Shown: positions 15,703 through 64,000 of the stretch, in pieces
How positions within the stretch are numbered: the first letter of the stretch is position 1
Layout of the letters: every line of letters starts with the position of its first letter
The notes under the pieces: generated by a model
The model's database searches: none
Seen by the model: the letters and a program-made list of their open reading frames with translations, nothing else
Told to the model about the DNA's origin: nothing
NCBI RefSeq assembly: GCF_900116295.1
Contig: NZ_FPAF01000008.1
Location: forward strand, 1-64,000
DNA: 64,000 nt
Source of the DNA: Bacillus sp. 103mf
GTDB taxonomy: Bacteria > Bacillota > Bacilli > Bacillales > Bacillaceae_G
Direction of reading: 5' to 3'
Translations under genes and position numbers: made by a program

Positions 15703-16105
15703 TTAAATTTTCTGAAAATCTGTTACTTCATGTTTGTTATAACGAAAAAAATAAAGCGAATTGAAAGACTAAAGAATCTTTTCCACTAGAAAGAGGAGCC
15801 TTTAATTTTAATACGATTCTTCCTGTAAATAAGAATTTCATCTCAAATAGCTTTGTCGAAAAATTTTTTTCTGAATTTTCCGTTAATTTTGAAGGGTTTT
15901 TTGAAACACAATGCGAAACCATTGTATAACCTTTTTTCAAGTAGGTTACCTATTACATACTTTTTAGGATCGGGATGAATTTTGAAAGCACTTTTCTTAA
16001 ATAGCCATTTTTTTCTATAAAAAAATCCTTGCAATATTTTCAGAAAATCATTACAATTGCCATATATTAAAAATCATAGTAATAGAAAAATCCTCATCAA
16101 TCCGA
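15703..16105. other. AT-rich intergenic stretch without a supportable gene
   Basis: About 400 bp between IS copy A and the lysine riboswitch. Two short overlapping minus-strand open frames exist but are Lys/Phe-rich, lack ribosome sites and look like chance reading of AT-rich DNA. The promoter for the riboswitch transcript should lie near 16050-16090. Confidence 0.5.
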
Positions 16106-16292
16106 TGAGGTAGAGGTTGCGGCTTTTATTAATAATCTAGACGAGACGCAGAGAACGTCAATAACTCTAGATAAAAGGAAAAGCTGCCGAAGTTTATACT
16201 TCTTCTCTGGAAGTATATGCTGGGGCTGTTTTCGAATAGGAACAGAACTGTCACGTTTACAAAATTACCGTGTAAACGTGGGGCGCTATCTT
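16106..16292 (+). promoter_or_regulatory. Lysine riboswitch (L box)
   Basis: The leader contains the L-box landmarks in order: GGTAGAGGTTGCGG (P1 and five-way junction), AAAGGAAAAGCTGCCGAAG, TGCTGGGGCTG, GAACAGAACTGTCACG, and the closing GCGCTATCTT that pairs with AGGTAG of P1. It is followed by a terminator at 16331 and then a permease gene. Lysine binding should favour termination, so the gene is expressed when lysine is scarce. Confidence 0.9.
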
Positions 16293-16330
16293 AACGGAAG
16301 GTATGATGGGGTGGCTATTTTTGAAATGCT

Positions 16331-16358
16331 CCGCTAAAGTCCTTTGGCGGTTTTTTTT
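16331..16358 (+). terminator. Riboswitch expression-platform terminator
   Basis: CCGCTAAA and TTTGGCGG form a stem with a GTCC loop, followed by eight Ts. It lies 46 bp upstream of the permease start and is the off-switch of the L box. Confidence 0.85.
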
Positions 16359-16403
16359 ATTCCCCCCGCTCCTTCCTATCTTACAAGAAAAGGAGTGTTG
16401 AAC

Positions 16404-44557: not shown

Positions 44558-44809
44558 TTATTTTACCGTGTAGTAAATACCTTTATCATCTATATATTTG
44601 TATGGCTCTGCTAAAGTAATTTTCCCATCCAGCTTTAACTCATCTAGCAGTCGTAGTAAATAAAATTGCTGCAGCATCTTCTTCGCAAATTTCCCTTTAT
44701 GTTCAGTAGCGATATGTTGTTGAATATCCAATAATGTAATCGGCTCTTCCTTTTCTTCCATATATTTATAAATTGCATTACGTAGTGTAATATATTTTTC
44801 AAGCGTCAT
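44558..44809 (-). CDS. Small winged-helix-like protein under SAM-I riboswitch control
   Basis: An 83-residue soluble protein, not recognised as a named family. It begins MTLEKYITLRNAIYKYMEE; the pattern of three helices ('ITLLDIQQHIATEH', 'AKKMLQQFYLLRLLDELKLDG') then two short strands ('KITLAEPYKYI', 'GIYYTVK') is winged-helix-like. ATG 44809 follows GGAGTAGGTGG; a longer frame reaches into the leader without a site. It is the only gene downstream of a complete S box, so its expression should rise when SAM is low. A role in methionine, cysteine or SAM physiology is inferred from that control alone. Confidence 0.65.
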   Translation of the reverse strand: MTLEKYITLRNAIYKYMEEKEEPITLLDIQQHIATEHKGKFAKKMLQQFYLLRLLDELKLDGKITLAEPYKYIDDKGIYYTVK

Positions 44810-44867
44810 AGTCCACCTACTCCTTTCTTCTCGTTGCCCATCTTTCATTATCGGTTTTTTTACAATA

Positions 44868-45006
44868 AAAAAACCTCTTCGATAAGAAGAAGTGGATCAT
44901 CTCTCTTCCTTCTTATCTTTCAGAACAAAACTGTTCTGCTGGAATTAGCACCTGCATCGCGGTTGCTGGGTTTCATCGGGCCAGTCCCTCCACCTCTCTG
45001 GATAAG
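44868..45006 (-). promoter_or_regulatory. SAM-I riboswitch (S box) with terminator
   Basis: On the minus strand: CTTATCCAGAGAGGTGGAGG, GACTGGCCCGATGAAACC, CAGCAACC, GGTGCTAATTCC and a closing GATAAG, the full S-box consensus. The terminator CCACTTC..GAAGAGGTTTTTTT follows. The terminator loop CTTCTTATC is fully complementary to the P1 3' strand GATAAGAAG, giving a clear antiterminator. SAM binding holds P1 and terminates transcription. Confidence 0.95.
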
Positions 45007-45027
45007 AAAATATTCACTTTATCTCTT

Positions 45028-45414: not shown

Positions 45415-46141
45415 TCAGCCCTTTAATTGAAATAATACTGTAGTAGCAATGAAAAAATAAACTGAATTGACGATTTCCCACACACCACCTTTTAAAATAG
45501 TTACCTTTTTACCATACAACACAATCGCACGAATGCAACTTGGAATAAACGCAATGACAAACCAAGGAGACACAATGAACGTACCAACTACAAGTGATAC
45601 ATGGTATCCCCATGAAATCCACCGATATGTTGGATTTTTCTTTTCTCGAATCATCGTTTTCACATAGAACGTACTTCCCATAAAGTATAAAAATGAAACA
45701 AGTGCGATCAGCCATGCTGTTTCATCAATTGTTTTCATTGTGAAATAATAACTGATCATGCCACCAATACAAAAAACGATAATAGCACTAACGTCATTCA
45801 GTAATGCTCGTTCATTCTTTTGACGATCAAAATACATGTTAATAAAAAATAATGGAATCATATATATTGCAAAAAAAAAGAATTCTCCACTCGTATGTAA
45901 GGGGAATTACACCAAACAAAATAGCAAGACTAAAATATATGAGCGCCCAGTGTAAATAGCGCTTTTGCCGCTTTTGTTTCATATACATTAGAAAGGGATA
46001 TGTTGCTAAATAGACAAATAACCATGCTAAAAAAAGTGGTATGTGTTGCCATGTCGCTTTGCCAATGAAAGCACTCAGCAAAAACGGAATCAGAAGCATC
46101 GCCCATGCACCATGCTGTTTTGGAATCACCGGCTTTATCAT
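45415..46141 (-). pseudogene. ywiC: YwiC-like membrane protein gene, frameshifted
   Basis: Two overlapping frames together encode one ~240-residue YwiC-family protein. The first starts 'MIKPVIPKQHGAWAMLLIPFL' (the PKQHGAWAML motif is the family signature) and runs to 'YEWRILFF'; the second resumes as 'AIYMIPLFFINMYFDRQKNE' and continues to 'ATTVLFQLKG'. The break lies at a run of nine A (45871-45879; T on the coding strand); eight would restore one frame. About seven membrane helices result. Function of YwiC is unknown. The shift may be a real mutation, slippage-based switching or a sequencing error. Confidence 0.85.
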
Positions 46142-46745: not shown

Positions 46746-46944
46746 GTTTTTCATCCCCTTTTTGGTAATAATGCGGTACAATACAACAATGATTAGGGAG
46801 ATTTTTCCCTCTGTACTAATTCATTTCACCTTATCACTATCAGTATATAAAAATATAATCTTTCCAACATCCCTATGTAGTATCTACTTTTATCTATCAA
46901 CGTCATACCATAGTATGAAAGATTGTAAGTTTCTAAATAAAAAA

Positions 46945-46977
46945 GACACTCCTTATATAAGATAAGAAGTGTCTCCA
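46945..46977 (-). terminator. Terminator of the ECF/DUF4430 operon
   Basis: GACACT-C-CTTA and TAAG-A-AGTGTC form a bulged stem, followed on the minus strand by TTTTTTA. The remaining 46746-47067 interval shows nothing else. Confidence 0.7.
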
Positions 46978-47067: not shown

Positions 47068-47754
47068 TTAATCTAAAATACCATACTTCCTCTTAAAGCG
47101 TGTCAATATTTTAAGCCAAGATGTACTAAACATCCAAAGAAACAGGACATTGGAAAGTGCATGGGCAAGATCAAAGTAAAAGCTTGTAATGTATGCTTTT
47201 ATAAAAGTATCCCATGTTAATTCCTTCAAAAAGCCAATAAGGAACCATACATTCATAATCCAGTTAAAAGCAAATCCTGCGATAAAGCCAAAGAGAACTC
47301 TACCCCATAATGTTTTCATCATCCACGTATGCCGCAATAGTCCTGCAAAAAAACCCATCATACCCCAGCAAAACATTTGCCATGGCGTCCAAGGTCCTTG
47401 TCCTAAAAATAGATTAGAAACAAGTGCAGCTGTTGCACCGATAAGAAAACCTGTCTCACTGCCAAATGCAATTGCTGATACGATAATGACAAACGACGTT
47501 GGTTGTACACTTGGAATGATGGAAAACGGAACACGGCTAATCGCAGCAATTGCCGCTAGGACAGCTACAAGTACAATTTCACGTGAAACAAACGCTTTTT
47601 TCTCAAAACGTGCATAAAATGGCAGCATAATCACAATTAAAAAGAATAGACTGCACCATATATAGTATTGATCCGTCACAAAAGACGTAAATAAAAGTGT
47701 ACCGATCAATACGAACAAAACGGCTAAAACGATACAAGCATATCTTTTGGACAC
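47068..47754 (-). CDS. ECF transporter S component (substrate-binding), CbrT-like
   Basis: A 228-residue, six-helix membrane protein. 'SRVPFSIIPSVQPTSFVIIVSAIAFGSETGFLIGATAALVSNLFLGQGPWTPWQMFCWG' carries the S-component features, including the GQGPWTPWQM loop that I associate with the cobalamin-type CbrT group. It gives substrate specificity to an ECF module. It overlaps the ATPase gene by 31 bp and starts at GTG by coupling. Substrate is inferred, not shown. Confidence 0.8.
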   Translation of the reverse strand: MSKRYACIVLAVLFVLIGTLLFTSFVTDQYYIWCSLFFLIVIMLPFYARFEKKAFVSREIVLVAVLAAIAAISRVPFSIIPSVQPTSFVIIVSAIAFGSETGFLIGATAALVSNLFLGQGPWTPWQMFCWGMMGFFAGLLRHTWMMKTLWGRVLFGFIAGFAFNWIMNVWFLIGFLKELTWDTFIKAYITSFYFDLAHALSNVLFLWMFSTSWLKILTRFKRKYGILD

Positions 47755-49382
47755 GCCTCAAACACATCCTCCCACGTTAAAGCATACGGCAATTGTTTAC
47801 GAATAAACCGATTAATAGACGTTGTATAAAAAAAGTTCTCACTAAAAAAGCGCGCCGGTGTTTCTTCCATGATAATTTTCCCATCAAATAACATAATACA
47901 GTTATCCACATATTTTGCTGCGAATTCAATATCATGCGTCGCCATAACAATTGTCGTTCCTTCTCTTTGTAGTTGTTGAAACAACTTGCCCAGTTCTTCT
48001 TTCTTCCCTGGATCTAGTCCCTTTGTCGGTTCATCTAATACTAAGAGATTTGGCTTTGATAATAATACTGTACAAAGAGCAATCAATTGCTGTTCCCCGC
48101 CGCTGCAATCATGCGGATGGCGATTGCGAATAGGAAAGATTGAAAACTTCCGAAGCATTTCTTCTACTTTTTCATTTGCTTCCCTTTTATATAGTTCTTC
48201 TGCACGGCTAAGCAACTCGTCCCAAACGGTATCATGCGTAAAATGATAGTAAGGATACTGCGATACATAACCAATTTTTTTAAAGCGTTCTTTCGCTTCT
48301 ACCTTATGAATAGGCTTTCCTTCCCAAACTACTTTTCCTCTGCGACATTTTTGCACTCCTGCTAGAAGCGTTAATAGCGTTGATTTTCCAGTGCCATTTT
48401 TTCCAACAAGCGCTGTCCATTGTCCTTGTTTAACATCCAACGTCAAATCCTGTAAAATGAACGGTCCATTCTTTTCATATTGAAATGAAACATGTTTTGC
48501 TTGTAGTATTACATCCCTTTTTTCTATATGTTGTAATGGTATGTCACACCGAAACTCATTTAAAATAGGACGAATTTGTTTCTGTGCATCACGAACGGTA
48601 AACGGAACATGTTCAGCCTTCCACTCTAAAAACAACCGTGGAATTTGCGGAATATATGGGCGGAATGCTTCTACTTTCCACATTTCTGGTATCACTTCAT
48701 TTGGTTTTCCATCATACACAACGGCTCCTTCATCCATAAAAACAATTCGATCGGCAAGAGGAACTACTTCGTCTAAACGATGTTCACTCATAATAATTGT
48801 AATTCCTAATTCTTCATGAATTCGTTTCAATAGTCCTAAAAAATCTTTTGCTGCAATTGGATCTAACTGTGCTGTCGGTTCATCTAACAACAACAATTTA
48901 GGTTGTAAAACAAGTACAGCAGCTAAATTTACAAGCTGCTTTTGCCCTCCAGATAACGTATGTACAGATTGATGCAACATATCTTGAAATCCTAAAAAAC
49001 TAATTAATTCAGCAATTCTTTTTTGAATGACAGTTGTTTCATAGCCGATGTTCTCTAATGAAAATGCAAGTTCTTGAATTACCGTATCCATCACAAGCTG
49101 ATTCTCTGGATTTTGAAATACCATACCGATTTCCTGAGCCGATAATAAGTCTGGTATTGCTTCTAAGGATGCTCCATCATAATATATGTTGCCCTCTCTC
49201 ATACCAATTGGGAGAAGTTCTTTTTTGAAATGTTTTAATAGCGTCGTCTTACCGCAACCAGAACGGCCTGCTAGTACAACAAATTCTCCATGGGAAATAG
49301 ATAAAGATACATTACATAAAGCAGCAGACTCCTCGTCTGTATATGTAAATGACAACTCTTTTATTTCTGCATGCGCCACCAT
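47724..49382 (-). CDS. ECF transporter ATPase, fused A-A' subunits
   Basis: A 552-residue protein with two ABC ATPase domains joined head to tail (about 1-265 and 280-552), replacing the usual separate EcfA1 and EcfA2. Domain 1: Walker A GRSGCGKTT, signature LSGGQKQ, Walker B LLLLDEPTAQLDP. Domain 2: Walker A GKNGTGKST, signature CSGGEQQ, Walker B LLVLDEPTKGLDP. Hence both sites look competent. The start is ATG 49382, five bases after GGGAG. It overlaps the EcfT gene by 22 bp and the S gene by 31 bp: a tight operon. Confidence 0.92.
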   Translation of the reverse strand: MVAHAEIKELSFTYTDEESAALCNVSLSISHGEFVVLAGRSGCGKTTLLKHFKKELLPIGMREGNIYYDGASLEAIPDLLSAQEIGMVFQNPENQLVMDTVIQELAFSLENIGYETTVIQKRIAELISFLGFQDMLHQSVHTLSGGQKQLVNLAAVLVLQPKLLLLDEPTAQLDPIAAKDFLGLLKRIHEELGITIIMSEHRLDEVVPLADRIVFMDEGAVVYDGKPNEVIPEMWKVEAFRPYIPQIPRLFLEWKAEHVPFTVRDAQKQIRPILNEFRCDIPLQHIEKRDVILQAKHVSFQYEKNGPFILQDLTLDVKQGQWTALVGKNGTGKSTLLTLLAGVQKCRRGKVVWEGKPIHKVEAKERFKKIGYVSQYPYYHFTHDTVWDELLSRAEELYKREANEKVEEMLRKFSIFPIRNRHPHDCSGGEQQLIALCTVLLSKPNLLVLDEPTKGLDPGKKEELGKLFQQLQREGTTIVMATHDIEFAAKYVDNCIMLFDGKIIMEETPARFFSENFFYTTSINRFIRKQLPYALTWEDVFEACPKDMLVSF

Positions 49383-50239
49383 AACCACTCCCTTCCTTCT
49401 ATTAGAATTGGTAGACTTATATACATCAGAAATGGAATCAATACAAATACATCATTTTTCTCTAAAAAGAACGATTCTACTTTTGGATAGATTGTTAAAA
49501 TACCATATCCCTTACTTACACCGAACAGACAACATACAAATAAGATTACGAACAAACTAAGGATTAACCAATCTCTATGTTCCATACGATACCGAATATA
49601 TGTACTTCGTTTTGTCACTCCGAATCCACGCGCTTGCATAGAATCAGCCGTTTGAAGTGCTTCTTCTAATGAACAAACTAATAATACTTGTAAAAGCTTC
49701 ATACCATTCCGTGCCCTTTCTTTCAAGGAACCCGCATCCACTTGAACTCCCTTTGTTCTTTGTACAAGTGTAATATGAGTAAGGCGCCTCATAAATAAAG
49801 GTACAAAGCGTACTGTAATCATCGTGAGCAATGCTGCTTTTGGTGAAATACGAGAAAATAAATATAAAAACTTATGACTCGAAATCATTTCATTATAAGA
49901 GGTGAATGTAAACATAATGACAACCAACGATAACGCCATTGTGCATCCATATGTTACAGCTTCTAATGTAATTGGATTATAACCAATATAAAATAAAATC
50001 GTACTGCCTCGATGCGTTAATAACGGATTGGCTATTGTAATAATAAAAGCGAAAAAAAGTGAACTAGGTAACATTTTTCTCAATTTTTCTCCATTACCTT
50101 GCGTAATATTTAATATAAGGATCATACAAATTGCACCAATTAAAAAAACAGGGTGAAGACATACCATACATAGTATAATCACCCCTGCATAATACAGAAA
50201 ATTAACGAATGGATGCATAGAAGAAAATGCTAGTTTCAT
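49361..50239 (-). CDS. ecfT: ECF transporter T component
   Basis: A 292-residue membrane protein of the CbiQ/EcfT family. Membrane helices flank a cytoplasmic segment with the ATPase-coupling motifs: 'SLEEALQTADSMQARGFG' (A-R-G) and the preceding 'RMTHITLVQRTKGVQVDAGSLKERARNG' region. It links the S component to the ATPases. Lies 6 bp downstream of the DUF4430 lipoprotein gene. Confidence 0.9.
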   Translation of the reverse strand: MKLAFSSMHPFVNFLYYAGVIILCMVCLHPVFLIGAICMILILNITQGNGEKLRKMLPSSLFFAFIITIANPLLTHRGSTILFYIGYNPITLEAVTYGCTMALSLVVIMFTFTSYNEMISSHKFLYLFSRISPKAALLTMITVRFVPLFMRRLTHITLVQRTKGVQVDAGSLKERARNGMKLLQVLLVCSLEEALQTADSMQARGFGVTKRSTYIRYRMEHRDWLILSLFVILFVCCLFGVSKGYGILTIYPKVESFFLEKNDVFVLIPFLMYISLPILIEGREWLWWRMQK

Positions 50240-50245
50240 AACTCT

Positions 50246-51010
50246 TTACCGATCTTCTTTCCTATAATCTAACGAATAAAACCATTCAATTTTATCTCCT
50301 TGTTTCACTTTATAGCTACCCGCACCTTTATTAACAGCAACACCATTCACACGATACATCCAGCCACTCCCGGCACCTTTAGCTTTCTCGTATAAATTAT
50401 TAATCCCTTGAACATATACACTGCTTCCTGAACCTGTATATTCCATTTGAATTCCTTTTTTCTTCAATGTCCGTCCTAACACTTTAAACACAGTATCTCC
50501 GTCTTGAAGTTCTACTTCTGTATCTCCTAAAATTGTACCTTGATCATCCCGTACAGATAACGTAACTATCTTTTTCTCTGGTTCTGGTTTCGGCTCCGGT
50601 TTTGGTTCTGGTGAAGGCACTGGATTTACTTGTGTCTGCTGTACATTTTCCTGTTTCGGTGTTTCTTTCGGTTCATTTACAACTTTGGATTGTTCTTTTT
50701 GATTTTGGGATGGTTCTGCCGTTTTCGTTTTTGACTGATTTTCTTCTATCGATTTTGGTTCTGCCGTTTTTTCATCTTTTCGTTTCTCTTCTTGTTTCTG
50801 TTCTTCTGTCGGCTTTTGTTCTTGCTTACTATCTTCTTGTTTATGCTCTTCCTGTTTATTCCCTTCTTGCTTCTTCTCATCTTTTTTCTCTGTTTGTTTT
50901 GTAGTTGTATCGGTTTTCACCTCATTTTGACTACATCCAGCAATAAAGCTAAATGAGAAAACTAACAAGACAAGCCATTTCATCATTTTCATCTTTCTCA
51001 CACCTTTCAT
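50246..51010 (-). CDS. DUF4430 domain lipoprotein
   Basis: A 254-residue lipoprotein. Signal 'MKWLVLLVFSFSFIAGC' has a lipobox (FIAGC, ~residue 26). A long Lys/Glu/Gln-rich low-complexity linker (~30-155) follows, then a DUF4430 domain: 'DGDTVFKVLGRTLKKKGIQMEYTGSGSSVYVQGINNLYEKAKGAGSGWMYRVNGVAVNKGAGSYKVKQGDKIEWFYSLD' (~170-250). DUF4430 is the C-terminal beta domain of transcobalamin/intrinsic factor. It is therefore likely the membrane-side binding protein for the ECF transporter, reaching across the wall with its linker. Confidence 0.88.
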   Translation of the reverse strand: MKGVRKMKMMKWLVLLVFSFSFIAGCSQNEVKTDTTTKQTEKKDEKKQEGNKQEEHKQEDSKQEQKPTEEQKQEEKRKDEKTAEPKSIEENQSKTKTAEPSQNQKEQSKVVNEPKETPKQENVQQTQVNPVPSPEPKPEPKPEPEKKIVTLSVRDDQGTILGDTEVELQDGDTVFKVLGRTLKKKGIQMEYTGSGSSVYVQGINNLYEKAKGAGSGWMYRVNGVAVNKGAGSYKVKQGDKIEWFYSLDYRKEDR

Positions 51011-51046
51011 AACAAAATTAGGAGCAAATATTTGCTCCTAATTTTG

Positions 51047-52690
51047 TCAAGCCGCTTTTCTTCTCCATAATACATATGCACTGGTCATACATAATACGCC
51101 TAGTGCAGTTGACGTAGCAATGTCTCTGCCTGACATACCTGTCTCTGGTAAGTAGCGATTCTCTACTTTCGTATCTTTTTGTACAGATTGGTTTTCATCG
51201 TTTGAAGCAGAAGGTTCATTTGTTTGCTTTTGCAGTTCTTCTACTTTAGGCTGCTCATTTGTTGGTTGCTTTGACTCGTCAGTTGGTTTATTTCCTTCAT
51301 TTGTTGACGTTTTTGTCCAATCATAAACAGAGCCTTTCCCCGTTAAAAAGTTCTTATATTGCACAAGCGCTAACATCGCTTGCTCCGTTGCCATGCCATT
51401 TTCTTCCGTATCAACTGGCAACCATTTAAAACCACCATTTTCCAGTTGGTAAGATAGTAGATTTTGGACCGCATTATAATTATTTTTCGTAAATGCAGCA
51501 CTTGTTGGATCGATACCAGCTGCCGCAAGCCCAAGTACCGCCTGCGCTACACTGTTGGAATTTTCTCCACTACCAGATAAAAATCCACCTTTATCTGTTT
51601 GTGTACGAACTAAATATTGCTTTGCTTTTTCTAACGATTGCTTTACTTCTGCTTGTTCTTGATATGGTGCTAATGCGACAAGAGCCATCCCTGTTATATC
51701 AACATCACCTGGTTCCTCTAAATTACCCATGTACGCCCAGCTACCGTCTGTATGTTGTAATTTTAAAATAGCTTTAATTAAGGCATCACGGTTCCATTTT
51801 GCATTCGCTGGCACTTCATATTTTTTTGTATCTAACGCAATTAAACTATAAATGTAATCTGTAATAGATTCTGTTTTTTCAAAGTTATACAGCTTTGAAA
51901 TTAAGTTATTACTTGCAATATTTGTTGGATCTCCTTCTACTGCTGTAACCGCTAAAATAGTACGTGCTAATTCCGTAGAAGAAAATTTATTTTCTTTTTC
52001 TGCAACACGTTCTCCTAACGATTGTAAATAACTAGACTTTACATCTCGAGCAACTTCTTGGCCTGATTGAGTAAGTCCTATCATTACCCAGTCACCCTCA
52101 ATACCATCTTGCATCATCTTTTGAGCAGTTTTTGCAATCGCTTCATCAACTTTCTTTGTTACATCAACCTTTGTAGGTTCTTGTGGTTTTGGTGCATCTG
52201 GCTTATCTGTATTTGGTTTTTCCGTATCCGGTTGTTTCTTACATGTACCAAGTTTATCTAACACTTGCTGCAAAGTTTCTTGACTCATATTGTTCCAATC
52301 AACAACATAGCGATACGCTACAACATCTCCAGCCTTTAATTTATAGCTATCTGCTCCAACCATTGGTGACTGATTATTCACCTCATATGTCCACCCGCTT
52401 GTTGCACCAGCCATTAATCCATCAATACCTTTAATATATGGACCGTATTTTGTATTTTCTGCTGTTACTTTATTACCCATTTCTTTTTGGAGCAAACTAT
52501 AGGCTGTCTCTCCATCTTGAATTGCAACTTCTTTTGGACATAGCATCATTCCTTTTTGCGAATCTCCAACAATTGCTAACGTTGCTGTATTTCCTTCAGC
52601 AAACGTAATATGTACAGTATTTGCAAAAGATAAAACAACCAATGCAACTGTCATAAATGACGTTAATAACCACTTTTTCATGTTCGTCAT
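51047..52690 (-). CDS. LPXTG surface protein with DUF4430 and terpenoid-cyclase-like alpha/alpha domain
   Basis: A 547-residue sortase substrate. After a signal peptide (to ~residue 31) comes a DUF4430 domain (~40-130, 'DGETAYSLLQKEMG..SGWTYEVNNQSPMVGADSYKLKAGDVVAYRYVV'), then a linker, then an alpha6/alpha6-type domain of prenyltransferase-like repeats (~180-450, 'ALIKAILKLQHTDGSWAYMG', 'QTDKGGFLSGSGENSNSVAQAVLGLA', 'YQLENGGFKWL'), a Thr/Glu-rich wall-spanning region, and a C-terminal LPETG, hydrophobic segment and RRKAA tail. This alpha/alpha plus DUF4430 pair is the same architecture as intrinsic factor and transcobalamin. It is first in the operon. Confidence 0.88.
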   Translation of the reverse strand: MTNMKKWLLTSFMTVALVVLSFANTVHITFAEGNTATLAIVGDSQKGMMLCPKEVAIQDGETAYSLLQKEMGNKVTAENTKYGPYIKGIDGLMAGATSGWTYEVNNQSPMVGADSYKLKAGDVVAYRYVVDWNNMSQETLQQVLDKLGTCKKQPDTEKPNTDKPDAPKPQEPTKVDVTKKVDEAIAKTAQKMMQDGIEGDWVMIGLTQSGQEVARDVKSSYLQSLGERVAEKENKFSSTELARTILAVTAVEGDPTNIASNNLISKLYNFEKTESITDYIYSLIALDTKKYEVPANAKWNRDALIKAILKLQHTDGSWAYMGNLEEPGDVDITGMALVALAPYQEQAEVKQSLEKAKQYLVRTQTDKGGFLSGSGENSNSVAQAVLGLAAAGIDPTSAAFTKNNYNAVQNLLSYQLENGGFKWLPVDTEENGMATEQAMLALVQYKNFLTGKGSVYDWTKTSTNEGNKPTDESKQPTNEQPKVEELQKQTNEPSASNDENQSVQKDTKVENRYLPETGMSGRDIATSTALGVLCMTSAYVLWRRKAA

Positions 52691-52723
52691 ACTGATGAAT
52701 CCTCCCCTCTACTAAAAATCACA

Positions 52724-52797
52724 TAAAAAATACCCACAATGGGTGCGTATAAACACACGGAGAAACGAATATTCAATGAATGCATATTTGTTTCTCC
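52724..52797 (-). promoter_or_regulatory. Structured leader with attenuator upstream of the surface-protein operon
   Basis: Minus-strand leader: a 14-bp stem GGAGAAACAAATAT / ATATTCGTTTCTCC (52759-52797), then CGCACCCATTGTGGGT followed by ATTTTTT (52724-52745), a terminator-like hairpin 35 bp before the first start codon. No canonical cobalamin riboswitch consensus was seen. The arrangement suggests transcription attenuation by an unknown signal, or an upstream transcript ending here. Confidence 0.5.
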
Positions 52798-52967
52798 CTT
52801 TATGTAGGAAACAACAACTTTTTACACCATAAAATATTGCGCTCTTACAAATCCATAATGTTACAAAATTCTGTACTATTTTACTATTTATATATTTTTT
52901 TGTCTATCATTTCTCATATTTCCGTCTTAAGAAGAATAGTATTTTCATTCCCTTACTTTTTATATCA

Positions 52968-54152: not shown

Positions 54153-57100
54153 CTACTTTGTGGTTAACGAAAGGTACGCTCCCTCTATCCCTTCTAATTC
54201 ATTTACGAGATATTTGGATATCTTTTCCACAGCCGGGGAGAAGACGATCTCCTCGTGCGACCCAGGCACCGAATACTTATTCACTTTCCCCCGTAACCAC
54301 GGCTTCCAATCCGTGAACAACTCTCTGCCTTCTTCGGCACTGAAGTAGATGACGTCCCCAAAATATGGCGTTAAAACATGCTCTGCCATTAAATTTAGAC
54401 ACTTCCTGTGAGCATTGATAATTTGCTTCAAATTCGTAAGATCTGCATCAAACGGGAGCACTCCTTCCAAAATTAATTGCTCAACAAGCATGTCCTGTTG
54501 ATGAACGAGCTCTTCTTCCTGATCCACTAGCTCTAAATGGATGAAATGCTCCAATATATAAGATAGCATTTTATCCTCTGTCTTGTAATCCTTTTCTGAA
54601 GGCACCTTAGTATCCATTAGTACCAACACCTCAACTTCTTCTCCCTGGTTCCGTAGTATAGTTGCGATTTCATAGGCGATGGCACCGCCCAGAGACCATC
54701 CTCCCAGACGATACGGCCCCTCTGGCTGAACTCGCTTCATTTCCTCGATGTAGAGTTGAACTACTTCCAACAAAGTCAACCCGTCCATTCCTTCTTTCTC
54801 TACGAGAGGATTCTGTAAACCATAAAATGAGCAGTGATCCTTGAGTAGCCTTGCTAGCTGAATGTAACAGAATACATTACCCATAAACGGATGAACACAG
54901 AAGAAAGGCCTTTTCTCTGATTCTTGTAATGGAATCAGAACCGATAACGATTTTTCCATACCATGATTGTCACGGATGAGACAAGCGATCCCTTCCACTG
55001 TCGGGTTCTCAATCAGTGCGGACACCTTAATCTCTTTTCCAAATTTCTCTCTGACCTTTGAAATCAATTTGATTACTAGGAGAGAGTGCCCCCCTCTATC
55101 GAAGAAATCATCGTTTACATGGACATCTTCTATCTGTAGCACATCCTGCCAGATTGTAATCAGCTGATACTCGATTTCATCCCGTGGGACGATTGGTGTA
55201 GAAAAGGTACTTTCTCTTTGAACCGTTAAGCTGTTCAGTGCCTTTCGATCAACCTTCCCATTTGTTGTAAGCGGAATCGCTTCTACCTCAATAAAGTGTG
55301 CAGGAACCATATAATTCGGTACTTGTCTCTTGAGATGTTCACGCCATTCATGCATACTTCCTTCACCCACCACATAGGCAACCAATCTCTGATCTCCTGG
55401 TTGGTCCTCTCTTATCAAGACTACTGCTTCTTTCACCGATGGATGACTTTCTAATTTCGCTTCAATCTCTCCAAGCTCAATCCGGAAGCCTCGAATTTTC
55501 ACTTGATTATCGATTCTTCCCAGATAATCCAAATGGCCATCAGCTAAATAGCGGACTAGATCTCCCGTCCGGTATAACCGTTCCCCTTCATTAAATGGAT
55601 GAGGAATAAAACGTTCGGACGTTAACTCTGGACGATTCAAGTATCCTCTCGCTAAGCCTGCCCCGCCAATATAAAGTTCACCCGTTACACCAATTGGAAC
55701 AGGTAGCAAATTCCCATCCAATACATAGGCTTGAACGTTCGGCAACGGACGACCAATGGTTACTCTTTTACTGTCTTTTTTGATACGATAGCATGTCGCA
55801 TCAACAGTACATTCTGTAGGACCATACACGTTATAAAAATGGATCTTGTCAGCCTTTACTAATTGTTCCCACAGTGACGGCACAATTGCTTCGCCACCGA
55901 CCAGTACCTTGCTTGGAACATGAACACTATCGTTTGTTTCTAACAACCCCTCATCTATGAGTAATTGGAGTAGTGAAGGTGTTATATCGAACATTTCCAA
56001 CTTATTCTCCCGAATATAAGATACAAACTGTTGAGGATCACTGCGAACTTCGTTTGAAATAATATACAAACTAGAACCATACAAAAGCATTTGTAATTGT
56101 TTAACGGATGAATCAAAGGCGATTGAGGCATTTAGACCAACACGCATGTTAACAGGTGTCCGATGTAAAAAAACCTCTTTTTGTAAACCATAGGATAAAT
56201 TTAATACCGAATGATGCTGCACCAAAACCCCTTTTGGATTCCCGGTCGAACCTGAAGTGTAGATAACATACGCCAAGTTTTCTCCTGTCACTTTACATAT
56301 TGGTGAAAGGGTGTTTTCTTGCGAAATCATTGCTTGATCCCGATCCAAACAAACTGTTTCAACTTCTTCAGGTATCCAACCTTGTGATACTTCATTCGTA
56401 ACCAATATTTGAATTCCTGTGTCCTCCAGAATATATCGTAGGTGACTTTCTGGATACGATGGATCCAACGGAACATAGGCTGATCCAGCTTTCAAGATTC
56501 CCATGAGACCGACAATCATCTCAACTGAACGTTGGGAACAAAGCCCGACCAATGACTCCGTCCCAACTCCACATTTCTGAAGATAATGGGCCAATTGGTT
56601 TGCCTTCTCATTCAGCTCTCGATACGTCAACTGCTGATTTTCATCCACTACTGCCACCGCATCAGGTGTACGATCCACTTGATCTTCAAACAGTTTGTGG
56701 ATCACACTCTCACGTGGATACGCTGCTCCATTATCATTCCATTCTTCCAGTAGTTGTTTCTGTTCTATTTCCGTAACATACACCAGCTCCGACAGAGTTT
56801 GATCAACGTTCTCGATCATTTGCTTTAACACCTGGCTTAAATGACCCAGCATCCTTTCAATGGTGAGGCCATTAAATTTGCTACGATCATACTTCAACTT
56901 TAACAACAACTGGCTTTCTGGAACAACTGTCAATCCTAATGGATAATGAGTTTGCTCTACTCCTTCCAAGTCACCAATTTCTAGATTTCCTGAAGACTCC
57001 TCTTTCACTGGGTAATTTTCAAACACATACAAACTATGGAACAGCGGAGTTCCTCTAGGAACTTCACTCCATCCTTGAATCTCCGTCAAAGAAGCATATT

Positions 57101-60100
57101 CATATTGTCTTCTTTCTATCTCTTCCTCTTGTATCTTCTGCAACCAATCCATTACTTTTATATCATCTATCAACTGAATTCGCGTCGGTGATGTGGTAAT
57201 AAAAGGACCTACAATGTTTTCAACATCAATAATCTCCGTAGGGCGTCCTGAGCTAGTTACACCATAGACAATGTCATCTTCTCCGCTATACCGGCTCATG
57301 AGATACGCCCACGCACCTTGAATTACCGTATTCAAAGTGAGCCTATTGCGCTTCGCCCAGTTTTGTAACGCTTGGGTTTGCTCTTCTGATAAATAAGTTA
57401 CCTTCTCTGTGTAACCTTTTTCTTGCTCCTTACTTTCTAAGCCAAGCAGGGTTGGCGCTGTAAAGCCTCTGAGTTTCTCTCTCCAGAATTTTTCCGCTTG
57501 CTCCTGATCCTGCTCTTTCAGCCACTGAATATACTTCTTGTATGGCGGTGACTTAGGTAAATCCACAGCCTCTCCTTTCATCCTCTTCTGGTACACTGTA
57601 AGCAATTCGTTAAATACCAGTGGCAGGCTCCATCCATCCAACAAAATATGGTGATGCGTCCAAACAATCCGATATTCTTCCTCCGCTTCTTGAATGACAG
57701 TCACCCGCATCAATGGCGCTTCATCAAAAAGAAAGGCTTGTTTTCGATCCGATGCCAAAAAGGCTTTTCGTTTCTCTTCTTTTTCCTCATCAGACAACGT
57801 ACGCCAATCCACTTCATTCAGCTTAAATGGGATATGTTCATACACCACTTGTAAGGGCTCTTCAATCTCATCCCACACAAATGCTGAACGAAAGATCTCA
57901 TGCCGCTGAATCACCGATTTCCACGCCTGCTCAAATGTAAGGATATCCAATTTCCCTCTAAGCAGGAAATTTAATTGCACCATATACGGCGCTGCATGTT
58001 CATCCCCTTGATCATGCAGCGTATGAAAGAGCATGCCTTCCTGCAAAGGTGATAGTGGATACAGGTCGGTAATCGGTTGATTCTTTCCACGATTCATCTT
58101 AGATAGTACTTTGTTTAAATCTGCTTGGGTGAGATTTGCCATCGCAAAATCCGAAATGGTCAGCGCAGATTCTCCATCCGAAGAGTAAATCAATCTACTC
58201 AGTTGATGGAGCATATTCTCTGCAACACTTTGAATGGTTGACTTCGCAAACTGTCCAACATTGTACACCCAAGTGAACTGAAGTTTTCCATCGGTTACAA
58301 TTCCGATTATATCGATTAAATGTGATCGCTTGGAACCAGGAGCATGGTCTAAGCGCGTAAATCCGGTCTCCGGAACAACCATCGCATCGTCAGAGAACAT
58401 TTGGTCAAATTGTCCAAGATAGTTAAAACTAATGGACGGTGTAGGCTGAGACTCCAACCGCTCATGCATCGCTGGATTCAAGTACCGCAAAATCCCATAG
58501 TCAACGCCCTTATTAGGAATTTGGCGCACTTGTTCTTTGACTGCTTTTAATGCTGCAATTGGCGTGTTGGCATCTGTAATATTTAAGTGAACAGGATAAA
58601 TACTTGTAAACCATCCCACGGTTCTCGATAGGTCAATGTCTTCAATAATCTCTTCTCGACCATGACCCTCCAGATCCACGGTCAGCGTCGATTGACCTGT
58701 CCATGCTGCCGTAGCCTGTACCAATGCTGCCAATAGTACTTCATTGATTTGGACACGATGGGTGCTTGAAATCTCTTGCAATAACGCACAGGTCTCTTTC
58801 TCATCCAGCACCACGGTAATCTCCTCAGTTGCTGTGTTTGTTGGATCTTCGAGGGTGGCATCCACTGGTAGCATAGCCACTTCTTGTTCGAACTGCCGCT
58901 CCCAGTAATCACACACTTCTTGCGCAATCCCAGCTTCAGCGTAATGATGCAATTTCTCCGACCACGCTTTAAAGGATGTGCTCTTCATAGGTAATTGGAT
59001 CTTCTGATCCTGGCTCGCTTGATTATACGCCGTTTGTAGATCCTCCAATAAAATCCGCCAAGAGACACCATCCACTACTAAGTGATGAATCACCCAGAAT
59101 AATCGACCGGCTCTTTTCTCACCTTCATCAAAATACACCATTCTCATTAGCGGTCCTGCGTGTAAGTGTAAGCTTGCTTGTGCAGCGTCAATCTCCGTTT
59201 GAATCACTTGATGCCATTCTGTTTGCGGCACTTCGTCTAATGAAATCACGGTCAGTGTCGATTGTTCTTCGATCCCTTCGTTCCGCTGTTTCCAAGCTCC
59301 ATCCGGTAAACCTTCATATCTTAAACGCAAAGCATCATGATGGATTAGAAGGGTACGCACAGCTTTTTCCAGTAATATTATATCCAATCGCTCTTTTGTT
59401 CTAAAAAACATGGATTGATTCCAATGGTGTGGGTTAGGATGATCTTGTGCAAAAAACCATTGCTGGATTGGTGTAAGGATCAGTTCTCCAGTTACAACTC
59501 CCTGCTCTGCTTGTACACCCTGTTCTTCCTTGACTACTTGCGCCAACTCGGCAATCGTTTGGTGTTCAAACATTTGCTTTGGTGTCAAATGCAAACCTGC
59601 TTGCTTCGCACGAGAGACAATCTGAATGCTGAGAATCGAGTCTCCACCAATTTCAAAGAAGTTATCATGGATTCCCACCTTTTTAATCCCTAATACTTGC
59701 TTCCAAATGATAGCCAGTGTTTCTTCTTTACCATTCCGGGGTGCCACACATTCACTTTCGATTTTCTTCTCCTCCGGTACAGGCAAGGCCTCACGATCAA
59801 CTTTACCGTTAGCAGTTAGTGGAATAGCTTCCATCATCACAAATCCGGAAGGAACCATATGGCTTGGTAGTTCCGCCTTGAGATAATCTCTCCACTCACC
59901 TACATTCCCATCACCCACGACATATGCCACCAATCGCTTATCACCCGGCTGATCTTCTCGAACAATTACAACAGCCTCTTTTACGGATGCATGTGCGTTT
60001 AAAGCAGATTCAATTTCCCCGAGCTCAATTCGGAAACCACGGATTTTCACCTGGTGATCAATCCGCAAAAAACAAACCAGATTTCCATCCGGCAAGTATC

Positions 60101-63100
60101 TCGCTAAGTCTCCTGTCCGATATAATCGCGCTCCCGGGTCACTACTAAATGGATGAGAAATGAAACGTTCTGCAGTCAATTCGGGTCTGTTTAAATACCC
60201 ACGTGCGAGTCCCGCTCCACCAATATATAGTTCACCAGCTACGCCAATAGGCACAGGCTGTTGACAATTGTCTAGCACATACACTTCTAAATCTGGAATC
60301 CGCTTTCCGATATTACTTCTTGAAGAATGCTTTACATCATCTTGAGTAATTGGATAATACGTAACATGAACGGTAGTTTCGGTAATTCCATACATATTGA
60401 TTAGCTGCGGGTTCTGCTCTCCATACCTTTGAAACCATGGTAGCAAGCTGGTAGGATCGAGTGCTTCCCCACCAAATATGACATAGCGCAAATGCAAGTT
60501 TTTATTCTCATCTTCTTGTTCACACACTTGTATCAATTGTCGAAATGCGGATGGTGTCTGATTAAGAACCGTAACCTTTTCCTTTACTAACAGTTGATAG
60601 AAATCCTTGGGCGATCGACTGATCCAGTAAGGAACAACAACCAATCTTCCGCCATAGAGTAATGCTCCCCAAATTTCCCATACTGAGAAATCAAATGCAT
60701 AAGAATGGAAAAGCGTCCAAGTATCTTTTTCATCAAACTGATACCAACATTCCGTTGATTTAAATAAACGAATCACATTGTGATGCTCTACCATAACTCC
60801 CTTCGGATTCCCTGTTGATCCCGAAGTATAGATTACATAAGCCAAGTTTTCTCCTGTCACTTCACATATTGGTGAAAGGGTGCTTTCTCGCGAGATCATC
60901 GCTTGATCCCGATCCAAACAAACTGCTTCGATTCCTTCCGGTATCCAACCTATTAATGCTTCGTTCGTGACCAATACTTGAATCCCTGTGTCCTCCAGAA
61001 TATATCGTAGGCGGCTTTCTGGATACGATGGATCCAATGGAACATAAGCTGCCCCAGCTTTCAAGATCCCCATGAGACCGACAATCATCTCAACTGAACG
61101 CTGGAAGCAGAGACCGACCAATGACTCGGCCCCAATCCCACATTTCTGGAGATAATGGGCCAATTGGTTTGCTTTCTCATTCAGCTCTCGGTACGTCAAC
61201 TGCTGATTTTCATCCACCACCGCCACCGTGTCAGGTGCACGATTCACTTGATCTTCAAACAGTTTATGGATCACACTCTCACCTGGATACGCTACAGCAT
61301 TATCATTCCACTCTTCCAGTAATTGCTTCTCTAATTCCGAAAGCATCGTCAACTTCGTCAGTGATTTATCGGGATGTTCCACGATTTCCTTCAACCAGTT
61401 TTCAAAATGCTCAGCCATACGTCTGATCGTTACAATATCAAATAAATCATTCTTATAGTTAAAACAAAGGAATAAACCCTCTTCCACCTCTGCGGCGCTT
61501 AAACTCAAATCAAACTTGGCGATCGAAGCATGACTTTCCATCGCTTCTAAACTTCTTCCATGAAGCTCTGGAAGCTCTTGTTGCGTGTTTTGCAAGGTAA
61601 ACATGGTTTGGAAGATCGGAGAATGACTTGTACTTCGCTCGGGTTGTATGACATCTACAATCTTTTCAAACGGAACATCTTGGTATTCATACGCCTTCAA
61701 TGCTTTTGTCCGTACTTGAGACAACAACTCTTGGAATGTCGGTGCGCCACTCAGATCAGCCCGATAAACCAACGTGTTGACGAAGAAACCAATCAACCCT
61801 TCAATCTCGCGATAATTCCGGTTTGCAATCGGGCTTCCGACAAGAATATCCGATTGTCCTGTATAACGAGCGAGGAAGCTTTGATACGATGCCAGTAAAG
61901 TCATGAAGAGCGTCGACTCTTCTTGACGACTAAGTTCGTTCAGTTTGTCGCGTAACGAGCGTGATAACAACACAGTGTGTGTTGATCCACGATGGGTTTG
62001 CACCGCAGGACGAGGACGATCCATCGGCAACATTAAGACTGGTAACTCGCCAGATAGCTCTTCCTTCCAATATGCAAGTTGCTGATCAAGTACTTCTTCT
62101 TTCATCCATTCCCTTTGCCATTGGGCAAAGTCGGCATATTGAACCGGTAATGGTGCGAGTTCTGCTGGTTTTCCACCAACCGCTTCTTCATAGAATGCCA
62201 TCCATTCTTGGAGCAAGATTTCCATCGACCAGCCATCCGAGATAATATGATGCATGGTACAAAGAAGAACCCATTCTTCTTCTGCGATTCGTACGATTTG
62301 CCCACGGATCAACGGACCTTGTCCTAAGTCAAATGGCGCTTCGGCTTCGTTTTGGATCCATTTTTCCATTACGCTTTCTCGCTCTTCGGAAGAAAGCGTA
62401 GTTAGATCTATTTGGGGAAGGAATCGGAAAGCATACGGTTGAATCTGCTGCACAGGATGACCATCCATTTCATGGAACACCGTTCGCAAAGATTCATGAC
62501 GCTCTATCAGCTGATTCCATCCCGTCTCCAATGCTTCGGGTACCCAATTCCCTGTAAGACGGCATACCATCGGTATATTATAAAGTGCGCTATTAGGCGT
62601 GAATTGGTCGATGAACCACAGGCGCTGTTGGGCATAAGAGAGCGAAATGGCTTCTCCCCGTTCCATCGGCATAAGCGGTGGAATCTCTCGTTTTTTGTCT
62701 CCTTTACGCAATTGATCCAGTCGCTTCGCCAACGCCTCTACTGTTGAATGCTCAAACAGTTCACGTACTAGCAGTTCGATTTGTAATGCCTCTTTTAACC
62801 GAGATACAACTTGGGTAGCGAGCAACGAGTGGCCACCTCGATCGAAGAAGGAATCCTGGACACCAATATTTTCTATGCCTAGCACTTGACTCCATACCGA
62901 TGCGACGAGCTCTTCCATCGGAGTTCGTGGGTATACAGTATTTTCAGTAGATGGTTCATCAGGTACAGGCAATGCTTTTAAGTCGAGTTTTCCATTCGGT
63001 GTGAGTGGTAAAAATGCCATCTCGACAAAGTGTGCCGGAACCATGTAATTCGGTAAATGTGTTTGCAGATGCTCCCGCCATTCATGAACACTTCCTTCAC

Positions 63101-64000
63101 CAACTACATAAGCTACCAATCGTTTGTCTCCTGGATGATCCTCTCTTACCAGTACAACAGCTTCTTTTACAGACAAATGCGCCTGCAAAGTTGCTTCAAC
63201 TTCTCCCAGTTCAATCCGGAAACCACGAATTTTTACTTGGTCATCCGTACGACCATTGAACTGGAGATCACCGTCAGGAAGATAACTTGCTTTGTCCCCA
63301 GTACAATAGAGACGTTTCCCTGACTCAAACGGATGCGGAATAAATTTTTCCTCTGTGAGTTCCGGACGATTGACATAGCCACGAGCAAGGCTCTTTCCTC
63401 CGATATAGAGATCTCCAATCACACCCACTGGCACCGGCTGAAGGTGAGGATCTAATACATATACTTCTGTATTCGCAATCGGTCGACCAATCGACGGAGT
63501 ACCTGTTGTCATTCCTACAGGCACGTAACAATCAGTGGTAACGACGGTATTTTCCGATGGACCATACTGATTAATCACCGCAAAAGGGATTTGTTCAGAT
63601 GGATACTGTGTTAACTGATCTCCTCCCGTAATGATAAAACGGAGATCCGTCTTCTCTGGCCAAGATAATTTCAAGAGTCTTTCCAGAATAGGTGTAGGGG
63701 CAAAGCTAGCCGTGATCCGTGAATCAATGAGCCAATCTCGTAGAGCCTCTGGATTGATTCGCAACTCTTCTGTCGACAAGTATAGTGCTGCACCAGCAGT
63801 GAGATAAGGCCAAATCTCTTGAACGGCTGAGTCAAAGGCAATCCCCGCAATTTGAGTCGCACGATCCTGTTCTGTAATTTGGTATACCGCTTGATGCCAA
63901 TAGACCATATTCATCAATGAACGATATTCGACCATGACACCCTTTGGCTTTCCTGTGGAACCAGAGGTGTAAACGATATAAGCTAAGTGCTCCGGTTTCA
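54153..64000 (-). CDS. Nonribosomal peptide synthetase, terminal subunit (5' end beyond window)
   Basis: About 3280 residues are visible; the frame is open through 64000, so the apparent first Met is internal. Domains by approximate position: partial A1 (64000-62950), PCP1 (Ser codon ~62827), C (62680-61330, HHIISDG), A2 (61310-59790), PCP2 (Ser ~59639, GGDS), epimerase (59500-58150, HHLVVDG, EGHGRE), D-type C (58080-56760, HHHILLDG), A3 (56740-55230), PCP3 (Ser ~55084), thioesterase (54950-54153, GWSLGG Ser ~54694, His ~54257). Codes read by eye: A1 DSQFIGQVV (no known match, nearest Leu), A2 DFWNIGMVH (Thr), A3 DSKDLGVVD (near Glu). The gene is richer in G+C than its flanks. It ends with a TE, so it completes a peptide whose earlier modules lie upstream, off-window. 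The product is unknown; its tail should be X-D-allo-Thr-Glu. Confidence 0.95.
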   Translation of the reverse strand, partial: KPEHLAYIVYTSGSTGKPKGVMVEYRSLMNMVYWHQAVYQITEQDRATQIAGIAFDSAVQEIWPYLTAGAALYLSTEELRINPEALRDWLIDSRITASFAPTPILERLLKLSWPEKTDLRFIITGGDQLTQYPSEQIPFAVINQYGPSENTVVTTDCYVPVGMTTGTPSIGRPIANTEVYVLDPHLQPVPVGVIGDLYIGGKSLARGYVNRPELTEEKFIPHPFESGKRLYCTGDKASYLPDGDLQFNGRTDDQVKIRGFRIELGEVEATLQAHLSVKEAVVLVREDHPGDKRLVAYVVGEGSVHEWREHLQTHLPNYMVPAHFVEMAFLPLTPNGKLDLKALPVPDEPSTENTVYPRTPMEELVASVWSQVLGIENIGVQDSFFDRGGHSLLATQVVSRLKEALQIELLVRELFEHSTVEALAKRLDQLRKGDKKREIPPLMPMERGEAISLSYAQQRLWFIDQFTPNSALYNIPMVCRLTGNWVPEALETGWNQLIERHESLRTVFHEMDGHPVQQIQPYAFRFLPQIDLTTLSSEERESVMEKWIQNEAEAPFDLGQGPLIRGQIVRIAEEEWVLLCTMHHIISDGWSMEILLQEWMAFYEEAVGGKPAELAPLPVQYADFAQWQREWMKEEVLDQQLAYWKEELSGELPVLMLPMDRPRPAVQTHRGSTHTVLLSRSLRDKLNELSRQEESTLFMTLLASYQSFLARYTGQSDILVGSPIANRNYREIEGLIGFFVNTLVYRADLSGAPTFQELLSQVRTKALKAYEYQDVPFEKIVDVIQPERSTSHSPIFQTMFTLQNTQQELPELHGRSLEAMESHASIAKFDLSLSAAEVEEGLFLCFNYKNDLFDIVTIRRMAEHFENWLKEIVEHPDKSLTKLTMLSELEKQLLEEWNDNAVAYPGESVIHKLFEDQVNRAPDTVAVVDENQQLTYRELNEKANQLAHYLQKCGIGAESLVGLCFQRSVEMIVGLMGILKAGAAYVPLDPSYPESRLRYILEDTGIQVLVTNEALIGWIPEGIEAVCLDRDQAMISRESTLSPICEVTGENLAYVIYTSGSTGNPKGVMVEHHNVIRLFKSTECWYQFDEKDTWTLFHSYAFDFSVWEIWGALLYGGRLVVVPYWISRSPKDFYQLLVKEKVTVLNQTPSAFRQLIQVCEQEDENKNLHLRYVIFGGEALDPTSLLPWFQRYGEQNPQLINMYGITETTVHVTYYPITQDDVKHSSRSNIGKRIPDLEVYVLDNCQQPVPIGVAGELYIGGAGLARGYLNRPELTAERFISHPFSSDPGARLYRTGDLARYLPDGNLVCFLRIDHQVKIRGFRIELGEIESALNAHASVKEAVVIVREDQPGDKRLVAYVVGDGNVGEWRDYLKAELPSHMVPSGFVMMEAIPLTANGKVDREALPVPEEKKIESECVAPRNGKEETLAIIWKQVLGIKKVGIHDNFFEIGGDSILSIQIVSRAKQAGLHLTPKQMFEHQTIAELAQVVKEEQGVQAEQGVVTGELILTPIQQWFFAQDHPNPHHWNQSMFFRTKERLDIILLEKAVRTLLIHHDALRLRYEGLPDGAWKQRNEGIEEQSTLTVISLDEVPQTEWHQVIQTEIDAAQASLHLHAGPLMRMVYFDEGEKRAGRLFWVIHHLVVDGVSWRILLEDLQTAYNQASQDQKIQLPMKSTSFKAWSEKLHHYAEAGIAQEVCDYWERQFEQEVAMLPVDATLEDPTNTATEEITVVLDEKETCALLQEISSTHRVQINEVLLAALVQATAAWTGQSTLTVDLEGHGREEIIEDIDLSRTVGWFTSIYPVHLNITDANTPIAALKAVKEQVRQIPNKGVDYGILRYLNPAMHERLESQPTPSISFNYLGQFDQMFSDDAMVVPETGFTRLDHAPGSKRSHLIDIIGIVTDGKLQFTWVYNVGQFAKSTIQSVAENMLHQLSRLIYSSDGESALTISDFAMANLTQADLNKVLSKMNRGKNQPITDLYPLSPLQEGMLFHTLHDQGDEHAAPYMVQLNFLLRGKLDILTFEQAWKSVIQRHEIFRSAFVWDEIEEPLQVVYEHIPFKLNEVDWRTLSDEEKEEKRKAFLASDRKQAFLFDEAPLMRVTVIQEAEEEYRIVWTHHHILLDGWSLPLVFNELLTVYQKRMKGEAVDLPKSPPYKKYIQWLKEQDQEQAEKFWREKLRGFTAPTLLGLESKEQEKGYTEKVTYLSEEQTQALQNWAKRNRLTLNTVIQGAWAYLMSRYSGEDDIVYGVTSSGRPTEIIDVENIVGPFITTSPTRIQLIDDIKVMDWLQKIQEEEIERRQYEYASLTEIQGWSEVPRGTPLFHSLYVFENYPVKEESSGNLEIGDLEGVEQTHYPLGLTVVPESQLLLKLKYDRSKFNGLTIERMLGHLSQVLKQMIENVDQTLSELVYVTEIEQKQLLEEWNDNGAAYPRESVIHKLFEDQVDRTPDAVAVVDENQQLTYRELNEKANQLAHYLQKCGVGTESLVGLCSQRSVEMIVGLMGILKAGSAYVPLDPSYPESHLRYILEDTGIQILVTNEVSQGWIPEEVETVCLDRDQAMISQENTLSPICKVTGENLAYVIYTSGSTGNPKGVLVQHHSVLNLSYGLQKEVFLHRTPVNMRVGLNASIAFDSSVKQLQMLLYGSSLYIISNEVRSDPQQFVSYIRENKLEMFDITPSLLQLLIDEGLLETNDSVHVPSKVLVGGEAIVPSLWEQLVKADKIHFYNVYGPTECTVDATCYRIKKDSKRVTIGRPLPNVQAYVLDGNLLPVPIGVTGELYIGGAGLARGYLNRPELTSERFIPHPFNEGERLYRTGDLVRYLADGHLDYLGRIDNQVKIRGFRIELGEIEAKLESHPSVKEAVVLIREDQPGDQRLVAYVVGEGSMHEWREHLKRQVPNYMVPAHFIEVEAIPLTTNGKVDRKALNSLTVQRESTFSTPIVPRDEIEYQLITIWQDVLQIEDVHVNDDFFDRGGHSLLVIKLISKVREKFGKEIKVSALIENPTVEGIACLIRDNHGMEKSLSVLIPLQESEKRPFFCVHPFMGNVFCYIQLARLLKDHCSFYGLQNPLVEKEGMDGLTLLEVVQLYIEEMKRVQPEGPYRLGGWSLGGAIAYEIATILRNQGEEVEVLVLMDTKVPSEKDYKTEDKMLSYILEHFIHLELVDQEEELVHQQDMLVEQLILEGVLPFDADLTNLKQIINAHRKCLNLMAEHVLTPYFGDVIYFSAEEGRELFTDWKPWLRGKVNKYSVPGSHEEIVFSPAVEKISKYLVNELEGIEGAYLSLTTK
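56270..56745 (-). repeat. NRPS A3 N-terminal subdomain, near-duplicate of A2
   Basis: The segment encoding the first half of A3 is almost base-for-base identical to 60840-61320 in A2 (for example both carry GCCAAGTTTTCTCCTGTCAC and TTGATCCCGATCCAAACAAA). Identity covers the linker after the C domain through the A3 core (AYVIYTSGSTGNPKG), then stops where specificity residues begin. It points to recent duplication or gene conversion. Confidence 0.8.
60840..61320 (-). repeat. NRPS A2 N-terminal subdomain, partner of the 56270-56745 duplicate
   Basis: Partner copy of the duplicated first half of the adenylation domain. Encoded residues from VIHKLFEDQV to TSGSTGNPKG differ at only a few positions between A2 and A3, whereas the specificity-determining portion differs completely. 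Confidence 0.8.

Follow-up and report, generated by a model that had tools for sequence, protein, structure and literature searches.

A predicted corrinoid capture and import operon in Bacillus sp. 103mf, combining a CbrT-like ECF transporter with two extracellular DUF4430 proteins

Results

Organization of the operon

Five tightly packed genes on the minus strand (47068-52690) of a 64,000-nucleotide stretch of contig NZ_FPAF01000008.1 of Bacillus sp. 103mf, hereafter the window, form an operon that is predicted to serve the capture and import of corrinoids. In the direction of transcription it encodes an LPXTG surface protein, the predicted first corrinoid catcher (51047..52690), a DUF4430 lipoprotein, predicted to be a membrane-tethered corrinoid carrier (50246..51010), the transmembrane component EcfT of an energy-coupling factor (ECF) transporter (49361..50239), a fused EcfA-EcfA' ATPase (47724..49388) and a CbrT-like S component (47068..47754), with gaps of 36 and 6 nt and overlaps of 28 and 31 nt between them. 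A terminator-like hairpin of 15 pairs 3' of the S gene (46942..46976, minus strand) likely marks the operon end. In the leader (52691..52860, minus strand), where no cobalamin riboswitch was detected, there are a hairpin and a stem (52732-52744) that weakly resembles a terminator.

The transporter components were assigned to their families by Pfam and NCBIfam. The ATPase carries two ABC_tran stretches (PF00005, 1.4e-65) and scores above the cut-offs of both TIGR04520 and TIGR04521, EcfT matches CbiQ (PF02361, 2.1e-10), and the S component matches ECF_trnsprt (PF12822, 1.1e-12) and PF07155 (3.8e-12). One cluster supplies S, T and both ATPase domains, which makes this an ECF transporter with its own module. 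The lipoprotein has a lipobox (IAGC), a long charged linker and a DUF4430 domain at residues 171-245 (1.3e-21). The surface protein consists of a signal peptide, a DUF4430 domain (approximately residues 60-128; 2.2e-14), an alpha6/alpha6-type barrel (approximately residues 177-450) and an LPETG anchor, followed in the sequence by a hydrophobic stretch and RRK; Pfam recognizes a Prenyltrans alpha/alpha toroid in it (4.5e-7), and in the AlphaFold model the barrel is made up of 12 helices. A first-pass annotation of this DNA had described five minus-strand genes of exactly this kind, including the fused ATPase, the charged linker and the combination of DUF4430 and alpha/alpha barrel, and is confirmed in its account of the gene content.

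The S component is related to CbrT

When the window S component alone was compared with the PDB, it matched CbrT (6fnp; E 7.4e-15, 29% identity over 149 residues). A profile of 21 S members reached 6.9e-22 with the same structure, the sole other match up to E 1 being the next solved S component (4hzu, 0.042). Placement of S against other vitamin families had been set beforehand as a refuting check, and no clustering with another family was found. The window S component keeps the columns that are invariant across the S alignment; it belongs to the same S family as CbrT of Lactobacillus delbrueckii and has an extra N-terminal stretch. CbrT of the L. delbrueckii ECF-CbrT has been shown to bind and import cobalamin (PMC5997447). 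By sequence kinship, the S component likely is of the CbrT type, with cobalamin binding and transport as its predicted function.

With CbrT as the query, a match was obtained in all 30 relatives' genomes searched. For 28 genomes the matches were placed against the operon, the S component of which was the sole match in 25 and the second match, behind a shorter CbrT, in the other three. The single match in genome G128 is the operon S, and genome G042 has two, one within a second operon (L103) and one approximately 3.4 kb from a surface-protein gene.

DUF4430 and the fold of the surface protein

The best PDB match of a 40-member DUF4430 profile was haptocorrin (4kki, 2.4e-4), followed by 3u7z of Ruminococcus gnavus (0.0018) and the beta domain of transcobalamin-2 (0.024). 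A near-invariant Tyr and an invariant Trp of the DUF4430 alignment fall on Y362 and W377 of human transcobalamin (numbering by chain offset), and both are kept in the window proteins. In the surface protein, G83-P84-Y85 (52436-52444) and W100 align with this region; GPY is also present at the aligned place in transcobalamin and haptocorrin. Four residues before the aligned Tyr is transcobalamin L358, the backbone of which binds the cobalamin phosphate in holo-transcobalamin (PMC5599065). In the animal proteins, the alpha and beta domains are able to bind cobalamin when separated from each other, and the beta domain is the first site of binding (PMC11107200), so that a lone DUF4430 lipoprotein is, by analogy, plausible as a corrinoid carrier.

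In Foldseek searches, transcobalamin ranked second for the window surface protein, with a TMt of 0.76 for the transcobalamin beta domain. Some relatives (e.g. L057) have the alpha domain before the beta domain, and for an alpha-then-beta relative the first 15 matches were all transcobalamin, haptocorrin or intrinsic factor (2.9e-10 to 1.2e-8), the next family following only at 1.2e-4. The Cobalamin_bind model (PF01122) remained below its cut-off of 25 bits, both for the whole surface protein (19.7 bits) and for the barrel alone (21.8 bits), and was matched at 0.001 by 2 of 45 barrels.

Conservation of the operon and its riboswitches

Locus counts are based on the best 80 of 595 confirmed loci from a scan of reference genomes. 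S was found at all 80, and at 67 the barrel protein, the DUF4430 lipoprotein, T and the ATPase are all encoded on the S strand, so that the grouping of these genes is not due to chance. No barrel gene was detected at nine loci, three of which (L013, L023, L062) begin at a contig edge. The remainder (L007, L009, L010, L011, L015, L017), mostly Paenibacillus, have a riboswitch, a DUF4430 lipoprotein, T, A-A' and S, and are natural operons without a wall catcher. At L066 the lipoprotein is not encoded as a protein of its own, and contig ends truncate L045, L051 and L077. An LPXTG-like tail occurs at 28 of the 68 loci that have a barrel protein; SLH domains replace LPXTG in three Paenibacillus/Sporosarcina proteins scanned. 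Among 43 genomes that carry the operon or its relatives, namely G128, G229, G339 and half of the 80, the MetH B12 domain was present in 30, one of them marginal, and the corrin-synthesis enzyme CbiC in nine, which fits consumers of B12 more than makers.

The cobalamin riboswitch RF00174 is present in all 80 genomes bearing the loci. At 55 loci a riboswitch lies upstream of the first operon gene, its position ranging from 711 nt ahead of the called start to 68 nt within the gene, as determined with a profile built from five RF00174 members (Infernal confirmed L005 and L018). A further 18 loci have a riboswitch on the same strand 135-1596 nt past the fetched edge, confirmed by sequence in each case and present as a tandem pair at L044 and L054. 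This brings the total to 73 of 80, and the remaining seven (L013, L023, L033, L045, L051, L062, L077) are at contig edges; at L013, the 341 nt present contain no riboswitch. A single RF00174 was returned in ten genomes (G027, G038, G039, G062, G064, G076, G093, G128, G229, G339; candidates in G064 and G076 were scored in part only), and in nine of them it sits at the operon, the tenth locus (L051, genome G076) being cut. One of the nine is G128, which among the genomes holds the highest-scoring relative of the window surface protein (44% identity). Upstream of the second operon copy in G042 there are three tandem cobalamin riboswitches (608-789, 1041-1222 and 1459-1640 of L103).

DUF4430-CbrT pairs outside the operon

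CbrT relatives occur in 37 plasmid records. In three of the four examined, a DUF4430 gene directly precedes S, and three of the four encode a B12-dependent ribonucleotide reductase (nrdJ) and a cobalamin adenosyltransferase; two plasmids have DUF4430 beside CbrT along with both enzymes. Plasmid sets of a CbrT-like S, a DUF4430 protein, the reductase and the adenosyltransferase were seen in two lactobacilli and one enterococcus (L096, L097, L099), the DUF4430 gene of L099 lying approximately 4 kb from S on the opposite strand. Besides the operon, three Bacillaceae genomes carry a cassette of riboswitch, DUF4430 and CbrT (L100, L101, L102). The small DUF4430-CbrT pair is found in lactobacilli, an enterococcus and three Bacillaceae, and a DUF4430 lipoprotein adjoining CbrT thus forms a recurrent core. 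CbrT-CbrU-CbrV have been named on a plasmid (PMC6722938), and a proteomics listing includes a protein named as an additional lipoprotein component of a putative cobalamin ECF transporter (PMC9963975).

Other features of the window

On the minus strand, a 3260-residue open reading frame (ORF; 54153-63935) reads as a putative multi-module non-ribosomal peptide synthetase with a thioesterase-like end. Two overlapping minus-strand ORFs lie at 45415-46141; one of these (45415-45861) holds only the C-terminal end of the YwiC-like profile, so a frame change may have divided a single YwiC gene in two. A lysine riboswitch (16103-16296, plus strand) precedes an amino-acid permease (16344-17873), and a SAM riboswitch (44910-45008, minus strand) precedes a short ORF (44558-44848).

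Discussion

We propose that the operon serves to catch corrinoids (vitamin B12 and related compounds) in the extracellular space and to bring them in through the CbrT-like ECF transporter, a prediction from sequence comparison to which we assign a probability of roughly 80%. It draws on the match of S to CbrT, the riboswitches of the relatives, the match of DUF4430 to haptocorrin and the two-domain fold match of a relative, and the same observations support the corrinoid candidate of the first-pass annotation. In the wall-anchored protein, the corrinoid would be bound between the DUF4430 beta domain and the alpha/alpha barrel, in the manner of intrinsic factor and transcobalamin. The lipoprotein at the membrane would take the corrinoid over or bind it directly, the S component would accept it, and T and the fused ATPase would drive import. 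Ligand binding by each protein, the hand-over and its order from wall protein to lipoprotein to S are steps that we infer, and this sets a limit to the proposal.

Two aspects of the window copy set further limits to it. In the surface protein the DUF4430 beta domain comes before the alpha barrel, opposite to the order in intrinsic factor. In addition, RF00174 was not found at the window operon at the gathering score, nor in its leader at E values up to 10 or with the riboswitch profile. The likeness to intrinsic factor noted in the first-pass annotation is supported for the DUF4430 domain by the haptocorrin and transcobalamin matches, extends to an alpha/alpha barrel as the second domain, and fails for the order of the two. 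In structural comparison transcobalamin ranks second for the window protein, the barrel of which resembles terpene cyclases and sugar enzymes as closely as it does transcobalamin, or more so.

The lack of a riboswitch, with the window as the sole cereus-group DNA in the comparison, could reflect re-purposing or re-wiring of the operon in this Bacillus group (assigned to the cereus group by the names borne by the closest protein relatives), with the same machine under other regulation and perhaps dedicated to another corrinoid or a precursor. Relatives carry a riboswitch where none was found in the window, and the window leader differs in having a hairpin (GGGAGAAAC...GTTTCTCC) and a short terminator-like stem. 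The leader, 170 nt in length, has a better fold than the majority of its shuffled versions (z -1.99; equalled by 7 of 200) and is possibly another attenuator. However, the invariant S columns and the Tyr and Trp of DUF4430 are retained in the window proteins, and we consider a change of this kind unlikely. The window copy, we infer, keeps its corrinoid ligand despite the missing riboswitch.

It is slightly less probable still that the ECF module and the DUF4430 lipoprotein import corrinoids while the wall protein's barrel has a different role, such as glycan binding or an enzymatic reaction. The similarity of the barrel to terpene cyclases and sugar enzymes would fit such a role, as would the six loci that combine riboswitch and lipoprotein without a detected barrel gene. 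Yet the cyclase motif DxDD occurs at the invariant Asp in none of 45 barrels, and among the 50 Foldseek matches listed for the alpha-plus-beta relative, only the 15 to animal B12 binders have alignments exceeding 400 columns.

Another cofactor, e.g. riboflavin, folate or heme, is very improbable as the ligand: PF07155 carries a riboflavin name and is matched by the window S above its cut-off (47 vs 26.7 bits), unlike CbrT itself, which matched PF12822 only (1e-5), and at E 0.01 the riboflavin and folate models matched 17 and 16 of the 21 S members, but the scores listed reach 17-21 bits, far below the respective cut-offs (99 and 60), CbrT itself also gives a weak match to the folate model, cobalamin riboswitches precede relatives of the operon, and the S profile found only 6fnp and 4hzu in the PDB up to E 1, where S components for riboflavin, thiamine, biotin and folate are represented by solved structures.

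Beyond corrinoid import as such, a broader reading is tentative, and we would hesitate to give it even odds: the surface protein may be a present-day relative of the bacterial protein from which intrinsic factor arose, within a system in which an ECF transporter is fed by two serial extracellular corrinoid binders, first the wall protein and then the lipoprotein, with the minimal lipoprotein-CbrT pair as its core, and in which this Bacillus group has moved the relay from B12-riboswitch control to another leader-based control.

The idea of B12 scavenging is not new, having been in print since 2007 (PMC1796856). From genome comparisons, Burroughs et al. (2007) predicted this role for a clade of transcobalamin-like SLBB/alpha-alpha toroid proteins with Gram-positive anchors, exemplified by a Bacillus protein in which the toroid follows the SLBB domain. 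They also described a second SLBB protein and CbiO and CbiQ genes in the operon, noted that key B12 synthesis enzymes are usually missing, and proposed transfer of the protein from Gram-positive bacteria to animals. The window operon corresponds to this description in its anchored SLBB-plus-toroid protein, its second SLBB protein and its CbiO- and CbiQ-like genes. The text covered of that paper (PMC1796856) contains no S component, CbrT, riboswitch or experiment, and our literature search found no experimental test of the predicted B12 role. Added here are the CbrT assignment, the riboswitch survey, the minimal DUF4430-CbrT module, the two-domain fold match and the missing riboswitch of the window copy.

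If the proposal is correct, Gram-positive bacteria catch vitamin B12 on their cell wall with the same two-domain clamp as is at work in the gut and blood of animals, and pass it to an ECF transporter. This would matter for competition over B12 and for the idea, put forward in 2007, that animals acquired the protein from Gram-positive bacteria. As the proteins are soluble or tethered, binding and transfer are directly measurable.

In the textbook picture the S component of an ECF transporter acts alone, and the class is usually described without extracellular binding proteins. The window operon, in which S, T and the fused A-A' ATPase are encoded together with two extracellular proteins, differs in this from ECF-CbrT of L. 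delbrueckii. With intrinsic factor, transcobalamin and haptocorrin the window protein has in common the alpha/alpha barrel and the DUF4430-type beta domain; it differs in the order of beta before alpha and in its wall anchor, and receptor endocytosis is not known for it. The BtuG system of Bacteroides is built from different protein families and serves an outer-membrane importer. There, as proposed here, capture at the cell surface feeds a B12 importer (PMC6143338, PMC10404256).

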